Source of the DNA: Sediminispirochaeta smaragdinae DSM 11293
GTDB taxonomy: Bacteria; Spirochaetota; Spirochaetia; DSM-16054; Sediminispirochaetaceae
Assembly: GCF_000143985.1 (NCBI RefSeq)
Contig: NC_014364.1
Coordinates: forward strand, 3,658,001-3,722,000
DNA length: 64,000 nt
Reading direction: 5' to 3'
Within the stretch, counting starts at the first letter, position 1. Every line of letters begins with the position of its first letter. The notes beneath the pieces were generated by a model. It had not been told where the DNA came from. It saw only the letters and a program-made list of their open reading frames with translations, and made no database searches. Positions 13,987 through 38,410 of the stretch are shown in pieces. Made by a program: the position numbers and the translations under genes.

Positions 13987-15519
13987 ATGCCGCTGAGCGT
14001 AAAAGAATGGACGGCACAGGTTATCAAGCAGGACGAGATCGATAGATACCTCAAAAACGGAAGGGATTTCATCGATGAAGAAGAGATCAAGAGCTTGCTG
14101 CAGAACAACAGGAAGTCAGATAAAACGAGGGTTCGGGATATCCTCGCAAAATCGCTTGCGATTGAACGACTTGGACCGGAAGAAACCGCTGTACTTCTGA
14201 ATGTAAGAGATGATGATCTCTGGGAAGAGATGTACGAAACTGGCCTGAAGGTCAAGCAAAAGGTCTACGATAATCGTATCGTGTTCTTCGCCCCCCTCTA
14301 TTGTTCGAACTATTGTGTAAATAGCTGCCTTTACTGCGGCTTTCGTGCGGAAAACAGCCACGAAAAGCGACGGCGCCTGACCATGGAAGAGGTAAAGCAG
14401 GAGACAGAGGTAATGGTGACCGAAGGGCACAAACGGATGATGATTGTCTACGGCGAGCACCCCCTCTCCGATGTCAACTATATGTGCGATACCATCAGGG
14501 CCGCCTACGAGGTCAAAAAGCCTGCCCCCAGGGGTACGGGCTTCGGACAGATTCGAAGGATCAATGTAAATGCCGCCCCCATGTCCATAGCGGATCTTCA
14601 CAAGCTGTGGGAGGTGGGAATAGGAACCTACCAAGTCTTCCAGGAGACCTATCATAAACCAAGCTATGCATCCCTCCACCCGGCCGGAACCCTCAAGGGA
14701 AACTATCGCTGGCGCCTCTATGCACTGCACAGGGCCATGGATGCGGGTATCGACGATGTCGCCATGGGGGCCCTCTTCGGCCTTTACGATTGGCGTTTCG
14801 AGGTGATGGGACTTTTGCAGCACACCATCGATCTCGAAAATCATTTTGGAATCGGCCCCCACACCATCTCCTTTCCGAGAATGACTCCCGCCAGCGGCTC
14901 AGATTTCAGTGCAAACTCCTCTTATCTTGTCGACGATTCCAGTTTCAAGAAGCTTGTTACCGTCTTGCGTCTTGCGGTCCCCTATACGGGGCTGATCGTA
15001 ACGGCAAGAGAAGCCCCCGGCATCAAGAAAGAGGTGATCAAGGTCGGATGTACCCAGACTGACGCCTCCACCCGGATCGGGATAGGCGGCTATACAGAGA
15101 CCCTCAAGGCCCTGCAGGAGCGGGAGGACTACCCCTACGAACAGGATCAGGATATCCAGCAGTTTACCCTGGGAGAAACCCGCCGCCTCGACGCGGTGAT
15201 GAGGGAATTCGCCGAAATGGGGATGATTTCCTCCTTCTGCACCGCAGGATACCGATGCGGACGAACAGGCGACAAGATCATGGGGCTGCTGAAAAGCTGC
15301 AAAGAGGGAAAGTTCTGCAAGCTCAATGCGGTACTCACCTTTCGTGAATATCTGGATGATTTTGCCTCCCCTGCGACAAAAAAGGTCGGGGAAAAGGTGA
15401 TCGCAAAGGAAATGGAAGAGATTCGGAACGAGCCGTTTTTCAAGAAAGGGACGCTTCTTGCGACCTTCGAGGAGATGCTAAGGCGCACCGAGGCGGGAGA
15501 ACGGGATGTCTATATCTGA
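13987..15519 (+). CDS. hydG: [FeFe]-hydrogenase maturase HydG (tyrosine lyase) with altered auxiliary-cluster ligand
   Basis: 510 residues. HydG is a radical SAM enzyme that splits tyrosine to supply CO and cyanide on an iron-cysteine synthon for the H-cluster. The radical SAM motif is intact: C110-VNS-C114-LY-C117. The C-terminal auxiliary cluster motif, normally CX2CX22C, reads C418-TA-G421 followed after 22 residues by C444, so the second cysteine is glycine; a new cysteine, C424, lies three residues on. The ATG follows AAGGAGG. It starts a coupled operon with an unknown gene, aspartase and hydF. Whether it is fully active or a specialised paralogue is unclear. No hydE is in this window. 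Confidence 0.92.
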   Translation: MPLSVKEWTAQVIKQDEIDRYLKNGRDFIDEEEIKSLLQNNRKSDKTRVRDILAKSLAIERLGPEETAVLLNVRDDDLWEEMYETGLKVKQKVYDNRIVFFAPLYCSNYCVNSCLYCGFRAENSHEKRRRLTMEEVKQETEVMVTEGHKRMMIVYGEHPLSDVNYMCDTIRAAYEVKKPAPRGTGFGQIRRINVNAAPMSIADLHKLWEVGIGTYQVFQETYHKPSYASLHPAGTLKGNYRWRLYALHRAMDAGIDDVAMGALFGLYDWRFEVMGLLQHTIDLENHFGIGPHTISFPRMTPASGSDFSANSSYLVDDSSFKKLVTVLRLAVPYTGLIVTAREAPGIKKEVIKVGCTQTDASTRIGIGGYTETLKALQEREDYPYEQDQDIQQFTLGETRRLDAVMREFAEMGMISSFCTAGYRCGRTGDKIMGLLKSCKEGKFCKLNAVLTFREYLDDFASPATKKVGEKVIAKEMEEIRNEPFFKKGTLLATFEEMLRRTEAGERDVYI

Positions 15520-15811
15520 TCGGATCGGGACCCTTTTCGAGGAAAATCCGGACAGACACTCGGCCCTGCGGCAGGTGTCGGTATGGCTGGAGCGTGAGTT
15601 TGATCAACATGTATGGATCTGCTCTATTTTCGGAAAGCGGTGGGCCTACACCGTCGGGTCTTCAGAGGTGCTGACCGGCCGGAACCGCTGGGATCTTGGC
15701 TCCGGTTGGGGTCTCCTTGCCGATGAGTTGCGTCTTTCCCCTGAGCAGTGGCAGGAGCTCTGTTTGGCTCTTGCGGAATCTTTAAAAGAAAGGGTGGTAA
15801 TGCAGAAATGA
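15506..15811 (+). CDS. Small tryptophan-rich protein of unknown function in the hyd operon
   Basis: 101 residues, not recognised. Six tryptophans (SVW, HVW, KRW, NRW, SGW, EQW) and a compact run of predicted short strands and helices (WICSIFGKRWAYTVGSSE, then a helix SPEQWQELCLALAESLKERV). No signal peptide, membrane helix or cysteine cluster. The ATG lies inside the end of hydG (14-base overlap) and its stop overlaps the aspartase ATG (ATGA), so it is translated with them. That coupling suggests a role linked to HydG, the aspartase or H-cluster assembly, but nothing in the sequence proves it. Confidence 0.75.
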   Translation: MSISDRIGTLFEENPDRHSALRQVSVWLEREFDQHVWICSIFGKRWAYTVGSSEVLTGRNRWDLGSGWGLLADELRLSPEQWQELCLALAESLKERVVMQK

Positions 15812-17217
15812 CGATGGACGGAGAAACCAGACGGGAGCGGGACCTGCTCGGTGAAATGGATATTCCTCGGGATGCCTACTGGGGAATCCACAGCCGAAGG
15901 GCCGCCGTCAATTTTCCTATTTCAAAACAGTCGGTTTCTCCGGAACTGATACACGCCTACGGCATGGTGAAACTGGCCGCCTGCCAGGTAAACCGCGCCC
16001 TTGCAACCTGGGAAAGCCGAAAAGGAGAGGCCATTGAACAGGCCTGTAGCGAGGTGGCAGAGGGGAAATTCGACGAGAGTATCATTGTCGACGCTCTTCA
16101 GGGAGGAGCGGGAACATCTACCAACATGAATGTCAACGAGGTGATCGCAAACAGGGCCCTGGAAATTCTCGACCTTCCAAAGGGTTCCTATCAGGTCATT
16201 TCACCACTCGACGATGTCAATCTCCATCAATCTACCAACGACACCTACCCTACAGCCCTGCGGCTTGCGGCAATTCGTCTTATCGAAGTACTGGAAAAGG
16301 ATATTGTCGCCCTCCAGGAGGCCTTCCAGGCAAAGGAACGGGAGTTCTCCTCTATCGTGAAGATCGGGAGGACTCAGCTTCAGGATGCCGTTCTTACCAC
16401 CCTGGGGAGGGAGATGTCGGCCTATGCCGACGTCCTCTCCAGGGACCGCTGGCGTTTATACAAAACGAAAGAACGTCTGAGAGTGGTAAACCTCGGAGGA
16501 ACGGCAATCGGTACCGGACTGGGAGCCCCCAGAAGCTATATCATGCAGGTAACCGAAAGGCTTAGGGGGCTCACCGGTATCGGCTTTGCCCGGGCGGAAA
16601 ATCTGATCGACGGAACCCAGAATGCAGACGTTTTCGTCGAGGTCTCGGGCCTGTTGAAGGCCTACGCATCGACCCTAGTCAAAATCTCAAATGATCTGAG
16701 GCTTATCTCTTCCGGGCCCCAGGCGGGCTTCGGCGAAATAACGCTGCCCCCCCGCCAGGGGGGCTCCTCGATCATGCCCGGAAAAATCAACCCGGTCATT
16801 CCCGAGGCTGTGGTGCAAAGCGCTTTTATGTATATGGGATACGACCAAGCCATCACCCTGGCCGCCTCATCGGGAAATCTCGAGCTCAATCCATTTCTTC
16901 CCCTTATCGCCCACTGCCTGCTTTCCGGCATCGGCAAGCTGAGCTCGGCGAGCAAGGTCCTGGCGGAGTTTTGCGTCAAAGGGATTAAGGCCCGTAGCGA
17001 TGAAATTGGACGTCACCTTGAAGGGGCCAGCGCCATAGCCACCGCCCTCATTCCCTATATCGGCTATGAAAAAGCCGAAGAGCTCCTTCTTTTTGCAAAA
17101 GAGAAGGGTTCGACCCTCAGGGAAGCCGCGGTGGGGCTCGGGCTCCTGAGTGATGAGCAGTTTACACAGGCAATATCATCCGAGGCGGTCACCCGCCTCG
17201 GCACACCCCAGGAGTAA
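15808..17217 (+). CDS. aspA: Aspartate ammonia-lyase (aspartase/fumarase family)
   Basis: 469 residues, family-typical length. The fold signature GSSIMPGKINP lies at about 319-329; other blocks are RERDLLGEMDIPRDAYWGIHS, AGTSTNMNVNEVIANRA and the substrate-binding HQSTNDTYPTA. The opening and the GSS loop fit aspartase better than fumarase. It should convert L-aspartate to fumarate and ammonia. The ATG at 15808 overlaps the upstream stop codon as ATGA. Its place between hydG and hydF suggests that ammonia release may serve H-cluster assembly, since the bridging amine of the azadithiolate is thought to come from ammonium; this link is inference. Confidence 0.88.
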   Translation: MTMDGETRRERDLLGEMDIPRDAYWGIHSRRAAVNFPISKQSVSPELIHAYGMVKLAACQVNRALATWESRKGEAIEQACSEVAEGKFDESIIVDALQGGAGTSTNMNVNEVIANRALEILDLPKGSYQVISPLDDVNLHQSTNDTYPTALRLAAIRLIEVLEKDIVALQEAFQAKEREFSSIVKIGRTQLQDAVLTTLGREMSAYADVLSRDRWRLYKTKERLRVVNLGGTAIGTGLGAPRSYIMQVTERLRGLTGIGFARAENLIDGTQNADVFVEVSGLLKAYASTLVKISNDLRLISSGPQAGFGEITLPPRQGGSSIMPGKINPVIPEAVVQSAFMYMGYDQAITLAASSGNLELNPFLPLIAHCLLSGIGKLSSASKVLAEFCVKGIKARSDEIGRHLEGASAIATALIPYIGYEKAEELLLFAKEKGSTLREAAVGLGLLSDEQFTQAISSEAVTRLGTPQE

Positions 17218-17220
17218 GGT

Positions 17221-18465
17221 ATGACAAAGACACCGAAGGGCTTGCGCCTCCATATCGGCATCTTCGGAAAGCGCAACGCCGGCAAATCGAGCATCCTCAA
17301 CGCCCTCACGAAACAGCAGGTATCCATTGTTTCCGACCAGGCAGGAACCACCACCGATCCCGTCGAAAAGCCGATGGAGTTGTTACCCCTGGGGCCCGTC
17401 CTTTTTATCGACACGGCAGGCATCGACGACGAAGGGGCCCTCGGCGCCTTGCGGATCGAAAAAAGCCGCAGGGTAATGGACCGGCTGGATATCGCCCTGA
17501 TCGTCATAGAAGGGGAAAAGTGGGACCATTTCGAGGATCTGCTGCTTGGGGAATTCAGGAAGCGGGAAACCCCGGTTATCATCGTCATCAACAAAACAGA
17601 CCTCTACGGAAGGGAGTTCTCCGAGCTCTTCGCCAAGCTGGAGGAAAAGAAGCTTCCCTACGTCCTTGTCAGTGCCAAGGAAGAGAGCGGAATCCTGGAA
17701 TTAAAACAGCGCCTGCTCAAAAGCGTACCCGCAGATTTTGTGAATGAACAGGAGATCATCGGCGATATTGTCAGGGACGGAGAAACGGCAATTTTAGTCG
17801 TCCCTATCGACAAGGAAGCACCCAAGGGACGACTTATCCTGCCCCAGGTACAGACGATCCGCAATATTCTCGATAGCGACGCCTGCTGTATGGTGGTCAA
17901 GGAACGGGAGCTGGCTGCAGCCCTGGAGATGCTTAAAACGCCACCGAAGATCGTGGTCACCGACTCCCAGGCCTTTTTGAAGGTTGCCGCAGATACACCG
18001 GACGATATCCTCATGACCTCCTTTTCCGTGCTCTTCGCCCGCAAACAAGGCGACCTTCTGGAAATGGTCAGGGGGACTCTCGCCATCGATGATTTGAAAT
18101 CGGGAGACAAGATCCTCATAGCCGAGGCCTGCACCCATCATCCCATTGCCGAAGACATCGGTCGGGTAAAAATCCCCCGCTGGCTTACCCAGTACACCGG
18201 AGCAAAGCTTACCTTCGAGCATATCCAGGGCCATGACTTTCCCCCCGACCTCTCCTCCTACAGCCTGGTGATCCACTGCGGGGCCTGTATGACGAACCGC
18301 AGAGAGGTGCTCTCACGCATCATGACCTGCAAGGCCGCAGCTGTGCCCATCACCAATTACGGACTCACCATCGCCTACTCCCTCGGCATCTTCGAACGTG
18401 CCCTGAGGCCTTTTGATTTTGCCTACGACTACTGGAGGAACCGGAACAGAGGACAAAAGGATTGA
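17221..18465 (+). CDS. hydF: [FeFe]-hydrogenase maturation GTPase/scaffold HydF
   Basis: 414 residues. HydF carries the two-iron precursor of the H-cluster and delivers it to the hydrogenase. The N-terminal GTPase is intact: P-loop GKRNAGKS at 16-23, switch DTAG and NKTD. A dimerisation domain follows. The C-terminal cluster-binding motif is intact, C304-x-H306 and H352-C353-x2-C356. It starts 3 bp after the aspartase stop codon and ends the operon. All features look normal, in contrast to the altered HydG. Confidence 0.96.
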   Translation: MTKTPKGLRLHIGIFGKRNAGKSSILNALTKQQVSIVSDQAGTTTDPVEKPMELLPLGPVLFIDTAGIDDEGALGALRIEKSRRVMDRLDIALIVIEGEKWDHFEDLLLGEFRKRETPVIIVINKTDLYGREFSELFAKLEEKKLPYVLVSAKEESGILELKQRLLKSVPADFVNEQEIIGDIVRDGETAILVVPIDKEAPKGRLILPQVQTIRNILDSDACCMVVKERELAAALEMLKTPPKIVVTDSQAFLKVAADTPDDILMTSFSVLFARKQGDLLEMVRGTLAIDDLKSGDKILIAEACTHHPIAEDIGRVKIPRWLTQYTGAKLTFEHIQGHDFPPDLSSYSLVIHCGACMTNRREVLSRIMTCKAAAVPITNYGLTIAYSLGIFERALRPFDFAYDYWRNRNRGQKD

Positions 18466-36301: not shown

Positions 36302-38410
36302 CTACTCCATTTCCGTCTCATGAATGACCGTCATAGTTTCGCGGGACAGCGTTCCGATGGCGGACACCGTTTCACTCATTCCCAGGACTGCGGTCATAAC
36401 ATCATGGTAGACCGTTTGGACCTCGGAGGAGAGGCTTTTCAGGCTCTCCAGAGAGGTAACGATCTGACTTCCTGCCGCCGACATTTCGTCCATCGTATGG
36501 ATGATTGTCAGCATGCTTTCTGCCATGTCCTCAGATCCTTCAATAACCTGCTTCATGGATTGGGTTGTCTTCTGCGATACGGATGCCGTCGTATTGATCC
36601 GTTCCAGCATCTTATCAAGTGTCTGCTGAATAACCAAAGCGTTTTCCCCGCTCATATCGGCTAATCTTCGTATCTCTTCGGCAACTACGGCAAAGCCTTT
36701 TCCCGATTCTCCCGCATGAGCAGCCTCGATCGCGGCATTCATTGAAAGGAGGTTTGTATTCGATGCTACCTGATCAATGATATCGACAAAGTCTCCAATA
36801 CCTTCGACAGATGCACTTAAACTCCCGATAGCCTCAATGGTCTCCTTCATTTCCTCATCACTGGACTGGGCGAATTCTTTCAAAGACGAGATGGATTCCC
36901 GTTTGCTACCGGACAAGACCGAAGTTTCATGTACGGACTGGATCATCTGTTCCACAGCACTTGATGATTCCTCTATTGCTTTAAACTGATCCTCGCTTTT
37001 TCGTTCGACATCCGCTGTGATCTCCTTGACATTGAGAATGAGGTGTTCTGCCTTCTCTATTTTCTCATGGAGGTTCCTTGCAAGATCTATCATCATATTC
37101 TGCTGCTTTGTCACAATTGCCTGCCGGTAGTGGTGACAATTTTCGGGTTTGTTAAGACCATTAAAGATGGCAAATGCCATGGCCTCACAGGTTCCGTAGC
37201 CGCAGGAGGCACAATTCAGAAAATCCTCTTCATTCTCTTTCAACATGCTTTTGTAGATTTGTTCAAGTTCCTCGGCATTGGGCGTTTTTAAAGAAAAATT
37301 ATTCGAAAGATCGCGGTACTTTCGCCTGTACAGTCCCTCGTTCCAGTACTGTGAGATGATCTTATCAACTTTTTTCGCCTGGACCTTCGGTTTCAGAGGA
37401 CCCTTGCCATATTTCCGGATGGCCTCGGATCTTCGTTTTTTTATAGGATACTCGATCTCGTCGGCATGTGCCTGGGAAAGCCCCGTCCCTGTTCCGCCGT
37501 TGCATCCAAGATCACAATTGAGGCAGTCCACAAGGCGCGGCTGCATCCCCTTATCAAGAACAGCCTTAAGCTCGGCAAGATACTCATACATCCCGGGAAC
37601 ACCCTCAATCTTCCTGATCCCCGAAAGGAGTTCGGGCGAAGAACGTTCCACCGTCTGCATCAGCCCTCCGGGCGTCGAAAACATGACAGCACGCTCGGCA
37701 TCCGGGCCGGTAAAGTCGACCTCCGGATAAGAAGAAAGGGTAATCCCTTTAGCCTTCATATATGCTTTCAGCATAAGGAAGGTGACATTGTAGTCTCCCA
37801 TCTTTGTTTCCGCAAATTCCCGTTTTTTTGCAATGCAGGGAGAAAGAACGGCAACGTTATGGTCTGCAAACTCTTTTCGATATTCCCGAATCATGGCAAT
37901 GGTATGAAGCATAGGGCTGTGTGCCGGCGCAAGATAAGGGATGAGCTCCGGATGATATATTTCTATGTAGGTAACAATGGCAGGACAGGGCTGGGCTATG
38001 ACAAGATCGGGATCATCCCTTTTGATATGATTGATATAGGAGGCAACGGTAAGCTCGGCCCCAAAGCTTACATCAAAAAAGGCCTCAATGCCTAAGGACC
38101 CTAAATACCCGTTCAGCCTGAGGTAAGAATCGGGGAAACTTGAAGCGACGGAAGGGGCAACGATGGCGATCATGGGCTCTTTGCGTGATAAGGCATCGAA
38201 AAAGGCCTCTGTATCGTCAACCACTGATCGCGCATTGTGCGTGCAGGCTTCTATGCATTTCCCGCACCCTATACAGAGGTCATGATGGATCGTTACGGTA
38301 GAGCCGCTTCCGTCAATGCAGTATTTAACCGGACAAGCAGCTATACAGGCATGGCAGTTTACACATTTACTTTCATCAATCTGTATTACTGGTGCAAGGC
38401 TCTGTTTCAT
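36302..38410 (-). CDS. Soluble chemoreceptor fused to an [FeFe]-hydrogenase-like H-cluster domain
   Basis: 702 residues. Order: two [4Fe-4S] ferredoxin motifs ([11 protein letters not shown] at 16-26, [11 protein letters not shown] at 46-56); an [FeFe]-hydrogenase large-subunit-like domain at about 80-340; a four-cysteine Fe-S motif at C400, C403, C408 and C425; then a methyl-accepting signalling hairpin with the tip [17 protein letters not shown]-cluster ligands are kept: C142, C192 with K195, C299 and C303. The usual TSCCPAW reads AQPCPAI, so the proton-relay cysteine is a proline. No membrane helix. It is probably a cytoplasmic H2 or redox chemoreceptor, not a turnover enzyme. The ATG at 38410 follows GGAGG by 10 bases; the ATG at 38419 is one base from it. 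Confidence 0.9.

Follow-up and report, generated by a model that had tools for sequence, protein, structure and literature searches.

A large clade of HydG maturases with a CX5CX19C auxiliary-cluster motif, represented in Sediminispirochaeta smaragdinae

The hydG locus of S. smaragdinae

We analyzed a stretch of 64,000 nucleotides from the genome of Sediminispirochaeta smaragdinae DSM 11293 (contig NC_014364.1, positions 3,658,001 to 3,722,000; hereafter the window), which contains a run of forward-strand genes around hydG, coding for an [FeFe]-hydrogenase maturase. The genes of this run and the HydG residues relevant to its metal clusters are the following:

13987..15519, forward: hydG, [FeFe]-hydrogenase maturase of the CX5CX19C type, 510 aa (HydG profile and AF2 model)
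14314..14337, forward: radical-SAM motif C110-X3-C114-X2-C117, intact in the sequence (Cys in all covering rows of our alignments, at least 283 rows for each position)
14860..14862, forward: H292 within GPHTIS, a motif that lines up with its counterpart in solved HydG (His in 296/296 covering rows)
15238..15240, forward: C418, first cysteine of the auxiliary-cluster motif (Cys in 299/299 rows)
15247..15249, forward: G421 (codon GGA), aligned with the site of the second cysteine in canonical HydG
15256..15258, forward: C424, candidate replacement ligand
15316..15318, forward: C444, last cysteine of the motif (Cys in 298/298 rows)
15506..15811, forward: ORF of 101 aa from a family of small GAF-like proteins; it shares its first bases with the 3' end of hydG and its last ones with the start of aspA (ATGA at 15808)
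15808..17217, forward: aspA, aspartate ammonia-lyase (NF008909, 617.8 bits against a cut-off of 510; probable start at ATG 15808, mechanical ORF start at 15748)
17221..18465, forward: hydF, maturation GTPase (TIGR03918, 564.8 bits against a cut-off of 325.55)

The available sections of one study (PMC11736057) describe linkage of aspA with hyd genes, tie hyd operons to ammonia-lyases and give AspA as the ammonia source for the dithiomethylamine bridge. The position of aspA between hydG and hydF in S. smaragdinae fits this published linkage, the extra element being the 101-aa ORF between hydG and aspA. Elsewhere in the window, the reverse strand at 37493-38176 encodes a further [FeFe]-hydrogenase-like domain (PF02906, 108 bits); a search for three H-cluster motif patterns found none of them there.

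Family assignment of the HydG protein

The 510-aa protein scores 441.5 bits with the curated HydG profile TIGR03955 (an NCBIfam equivalog), well over the cut-off of 312.15. The next-best family is ThiH (2-iminoacetate synthase; TIGR02351), with 236.7 bits; as this falls under the curated cut-off of 380, we rejected an identity as ThiH. An AF2 model, with a mean pLDDT of 92.1 and its weakest part in the motif loop (65 for the block 421-430), finds its best structural match in HydG 4wcx from T. italicus (Z 51.7, 1.5 Å over 452 residues, covering model residues 21-510), followed by the C. hydrogenoformans HydG 4rtb (Z 41.5) and then by ThiH (Z 40.6), with which it shares the radical-SAM tyrosine lyase fold. 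The ThiH chains comprise about 365 residues and align with the model only up to residue 433, whereas the model has the complete HydG fold, including the C-terminal domain. With the canonical HydGs of T. italicus and C. hydrogenoformans, both of the CX2CX22C form, the S. smaragdinae protein thus shares the full-length fold, the radical-SAM motif, the histidine of the GPHT motif and the first and last cysteines of the auxiliary-cluster motif. We take H292 to be the counterpart of the dangler-iron histidine, H265 of T. italicus HydG.

The first-pass annotation of this DNA had raised the prospect of another role for the enzyme. A non-maturase paralogue, for instance a ThiH-like tyrosine lyase, would accord with ThiH being the next-best family, but the above-threshold HydG score, a closest structural neighbor that is HydG through the C-terminal domain, the presence of hydF within the same gene run and the hyd genes that keep company with other members of its clade (see below) render it extremely improbable. 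The proposal of another role is also left without support by the genome, which encodes HydE, HydF and hydrogenases and no second HydG.

An altered auxiliary-cluster motif

The C-terminal motif reads C418-T-A-G421-Y-R-C424-G ... C444, that is, C-X5-C-X19-C. In a gap-free alignment from C418 to C444, G421 and C424 face the segment CTACYRMGRTG of the T. italicus HydG of known structure (4wcx); of the cysteines of the canonical subgroup (CX2CX22C, with Cys at +0, +3 and +26), the one at +3 is replaced by G421, and C424 is present instead. These results bear out the first-pass annotation, which had correctly located the region and described a normal radical-SAM motif, a glycine in place of the second cysteine and an additional cysteine three residues beyond it. 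The same residues are specified by other, synonymous codons in a genus mate (G001, 99% identical) and in a more distant relative (G008, 79%); sequencing or assembly error was rejected on this ground and, with the residues recurring in more than 100 other proteins, its likelihood is negligible. Genome G008 encodes two HydGs, a CX5CX19C and canonical pair (L005/L023), with 79% and 43% identity, respectively, to the S. smaragdinae protein. Judged by its conservation in well over 100 other proteins, the G421/C424 arrangement is not a product of chance.

Phyletic spread and alternation of C421 and C424

A pattern scan of genome contigs with CTAGYR-x-GRTG, in which Gly421 is fixed and position 424 is free, recovered at least 118 stretches. 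All of the 118 matches listed encode the motif, with the residue at 424 being Cys in 113, Glu in two and Gln, Ile and Ala in one each. They are distributed across 19 phyla, including one archaeon of the Archaeoglobaceae, with 9 of the 118 lacking a phylum. As a motif-independent sample, we used the organism's own phylum, in which 127 of 392 genomes yielded 128 HydG matches: 110 of these were taken, 108 of them covering the motif, while nine of the remainder belong to a separate homologue set and nine were left out. In this sample 85 proteins have C421 (with C424 in just one of them) and 23 lack it (with C424 in 18); among the latter, position 421 is occupied by Gly in 19 and by Asp in four. 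A set from the Bacillota contributed 49 distinct rows, drawn from matches listed best first among 213 genomes with a match and hence biased towards canonical HydG. In the alignment that includes these sets, from which three ThiH rows were excluded, the only residues other than Cys at 421 are Gly and Asp. Across 299 distinct rows covering 418, 421 and 424, a set enriched by the Gly421 pattern search, C424 occurs in 138 of the 150 that lack C421 and in 1 of the 149 that have it.

In a 57-row tree computed with the motif columns omitted, the rows without C421 all fall in one clade with bootstrap/SH-aLRT support of 100/100 (37 of the 57 rows), and the S. smaragdinae protein lies inside it. The same clade was recovered in a 103-row tree with ThiH as the outgroup. 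In the clade alignment, 55/55 members match TIGR03955 at E <= 1e-20. The tree requires three changes at position 421 and seven at 424, the former count being too small for a formal paired test. Four clade members in the trees retain C421: L166 and L169 are without C424, L008 has Ser424 followed by a cysteine at 425, and L282 (CTSCYRCK) carries C421 and C424 together. L282 looks like a bridge state between two ligand positions, and the alternation as a whole fits two alternative positions connected by such a state. Alignment with other HydGs, a check proposed in the first-pass annotation, thus finds G421 and C424 together, concentrated in one clade, with C424 and C421 nearly exclusive of one another. 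More than 100 HydG proteins, presumed active, have the same arrangement at the sequence level; it is the rule in a large, old branch of HydG reaching over many phyla, and not a lesion.

HydGs with neither cysteine

Twelve of the 299 rows lack both C421 and C424. Nine of them (L163, L346, L347, L307, L291, L100, L316, L320 and L298) are the one HydG match of their genomes, and all nine of these genomes have a hydrogenase match, at E 2.8e-95 or better. Thus, C424 is not indispensable across the clade, and a ligand role for it is not forced. The remaining three (L055, L065 and L086; CTAGYR[E/Q]G) share their genomes with a C421-type HydG, and are possibly duplicates with another or a fading role. 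Asp421 is found in two of the twelve. All twelve have at least one more cysteine after residue 330, at 438, 433, 409 or 355 among other positions, none being common to all. The ligand set of the HydG auxiliary cluster seems able to drift.

Genomic context of S. smaragdinae HydG and its relatives

The S. smaragdinae genome, a single contig of 4,653,970 bases, has one HydG above the cut-off. A search of this genome for a second HydG, as the first-pass annotation had advised, found none; the other, weak match is HydE, and rescue by a second HydG was accordingly rejected. HydE is itself above its cut-off, and together with HydF and [FeFe]-hydrogenase it gives a genome with the full hyd set. Seven matches to the [FeFe]-hydrogenase domain PF02906 were obtained; of these, two carry the complete set of three H-cluster motif patterns and one more carries two. 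No match to the [NiFe] large subunit (PF00374) was found in the genome. Strain SEBR 4228T is described as forming traces of H2 from glucose (PMC3035371). If this H2 stems from the [FeFe]-hydrogenases of the genome, then its sole HydG works; traces of H2 are nevertheless weak evidence for HydG function.

For the wider clade, the short DNA around the 118 loci listed encodes at least one of HydE, HydF and HydA in 62 cases. We further examined 50 genomes hand-picked from these loci with a preference for odd and named ones, many being metagenome bins of unstated completeness. HydG was detected in all 50 (47 above the cut-off, three fragmented), the HydA domain in 45, HydE above the cut-off in 45, and HydF in 40 above the cut-off and in seven more as full-length proteins. 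A second HydG above the cut-off is present in 6 of the 50 (one of them split), and none was seen in the other 44. The gene company across the clade is that of a working maturase.

The seven additional HydF proteins (from G047, G052, G062, G063, G081, G085 and G090) score 290-319 bits, just below the cut-off of 325.55, and the curated HydF model may miss a subgroup of the family.

Proposed ligand shift and alternative readings

We favor the reading, at a probability of roughly 0.7, that S. smaragdinae HydG is a working enzyme in which the third ligand of the auxiliary cluster has moved from 421 to 424. Tyrosine would be cleaved at the radical-SAM cluster, and the Fe(CO)2(CN)-cysteine unit would be assembled at the C-terminal auxiliary iron-sulfur cluster. 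At the latter, the third protein ligand would be provided from +6 (C424, CX5CX19C) in place of +3 (the C421 position, CX2CX22C), such that the [4Fe-4S] cube would be held by C418, C424 and C444, with the fourth iron remaining available to the cysteine-bound dangler iron. Both iron binding by C424 and unchanged chemistry are predictions from sequence comparison. Takeover by C424, raised in passing in the first-pass annotation, is the best-supported view.

Alternatively, the enzyme may work without C424 as a ligand, with a third ligand besides C418 and C444 that is variable or not a cysteine, and with C424 conserved for some other reason. This would agree with the nine single-HydG genomes that have hydrogenases despite the loss of both cysteines, and with the restriction of position 421 to Gly or Asp where it is not Cys, as Asp could bind iron. 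Against it, the distribution of C424 between rows with and without C421 is the pattern expected of alternative ligands, and we consider it unlikely.

A third possibility is that the auxiliary site is disabled without C421, leaving a degenerate HydG or one that acts only as a tyrosine lyase; a crippled enzyme was indeed what the first-pass annotation had expected. The C-terminal cluster of HydG is described as essential on the basis of mutation in the sections of the 2022 survey available (PMC9431212), with mutation at the cluster site of the canonical C. acetobutylicum HydG reported to abolish maturation (King 2006, cited in PMC9431212), and the three GE/GQ proteins mentioned above coexist with a second, C421-type HydG. 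However, the arrangement is usual in a large clade whose members retain C418, C444 and H292 throughout; the S. smaragdinae protein is the only HydG of a genome with HydE, HydF and hydrogenases, as are most of those in the hand-picked relatives (44 of 50 without a second copy); and H2 traces are known from a species with no [NiFe]-hydrogenase match. That the enzyme is crippled is hence very unlikely, its activity being presumed from these observations.

A small companion gene

The 101-aa ORF of S. smaragdinae gave no match in Pfam or NCBIfam. Using iterated profiles on the fetched DNA, and counting loci for which 450 bases or more downstream of hydG were covered, we found relatives at 34 of 115 loci without C421 as against 0 of 76 C421 loci, the latter coming mainly from two phyla; there were no doubtful intermediates. 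Members lie nearly always directly behind hydG, the exception being L049 and its duplicate L183, where the gene is 638 bases further on. On a 112-row HydG tree, in which 29 rows bear the gene, its presence changes 15 times. Most members have in common the motif G-x-R-W-[SA]-[YF]. Scans of the family against Pfam and NCBIfam returned only scattered weak matches of single members, and its profile retrieved nothing of note from the PDB sequences. The AF2 model of the S. smaragdinae protein (pLDDT 89.2) is a small alpha-beta domain; Foldseek returned no match to it at E <= 0.001, and a second structural comparison placed GAF-type domains on top, with Z up to 9.9. The modeled fold is thus suggestive of a GAF-like protein. 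When the ORF was compared across the genus (two genomes), 4 codon changes were synonymous and 11 non-synonymous; this pair thus shows no sign of strong purifying selection. A literature search for HydG together with GAF domains brought up no paper that appeared related by its title.

The protein could be a regulator or a partner of the C421-less type of HydG, both being possible. A more far-reaching and rather doubtful scenario would have the third ligand evolutionarily mobile, moving from 421 mostly to 424 and elsewhere to other cysteines or Asp421, with the clade recruiting as a partner the tiny GAF-like protein encoded right after hydG, which would dock to or sense the modified site of the cluster.

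Relationship to known HydGs and implications

To our knowledge, every HydG with a solved structure has the CX2CX22C motif. The S. smaragdinae protein differs from these canonical HydGs in having Gly at the second cysteine position and Cys three residues on, and in belonging to a clade apart from the sampled C421 sequences. The CX5CX19C motif itself is already in print: a 2022 survey reads C-x(5)-C-x(19)-C as the cluster-binding sequence of HydG CLAU_RS03260 from C. autoethanogenum (PMC9431212), the same spacing as in S. smaragdinae, known there from the reported motif. In its available sections, that survey gives it for one species by motif reading, with no clade or alternation with C421, and notes that the cluster-binding sequence varies among HydG proteins (Duffus 2012, cited in PMC9431212). 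Our literature searches found no account of the clade, its range of phyla, the alternation with C421 or the proteins with neither cysteine.

A large clade with a probably shifted ligand, together with sub-lineages that have neither cysteine, offers natural variants for examining the ligand needs of the cluster that forms CO and cyanide. Moreover, a genome survey that relies on CX2CX22C alone risks scoring HydG as missing or defective.
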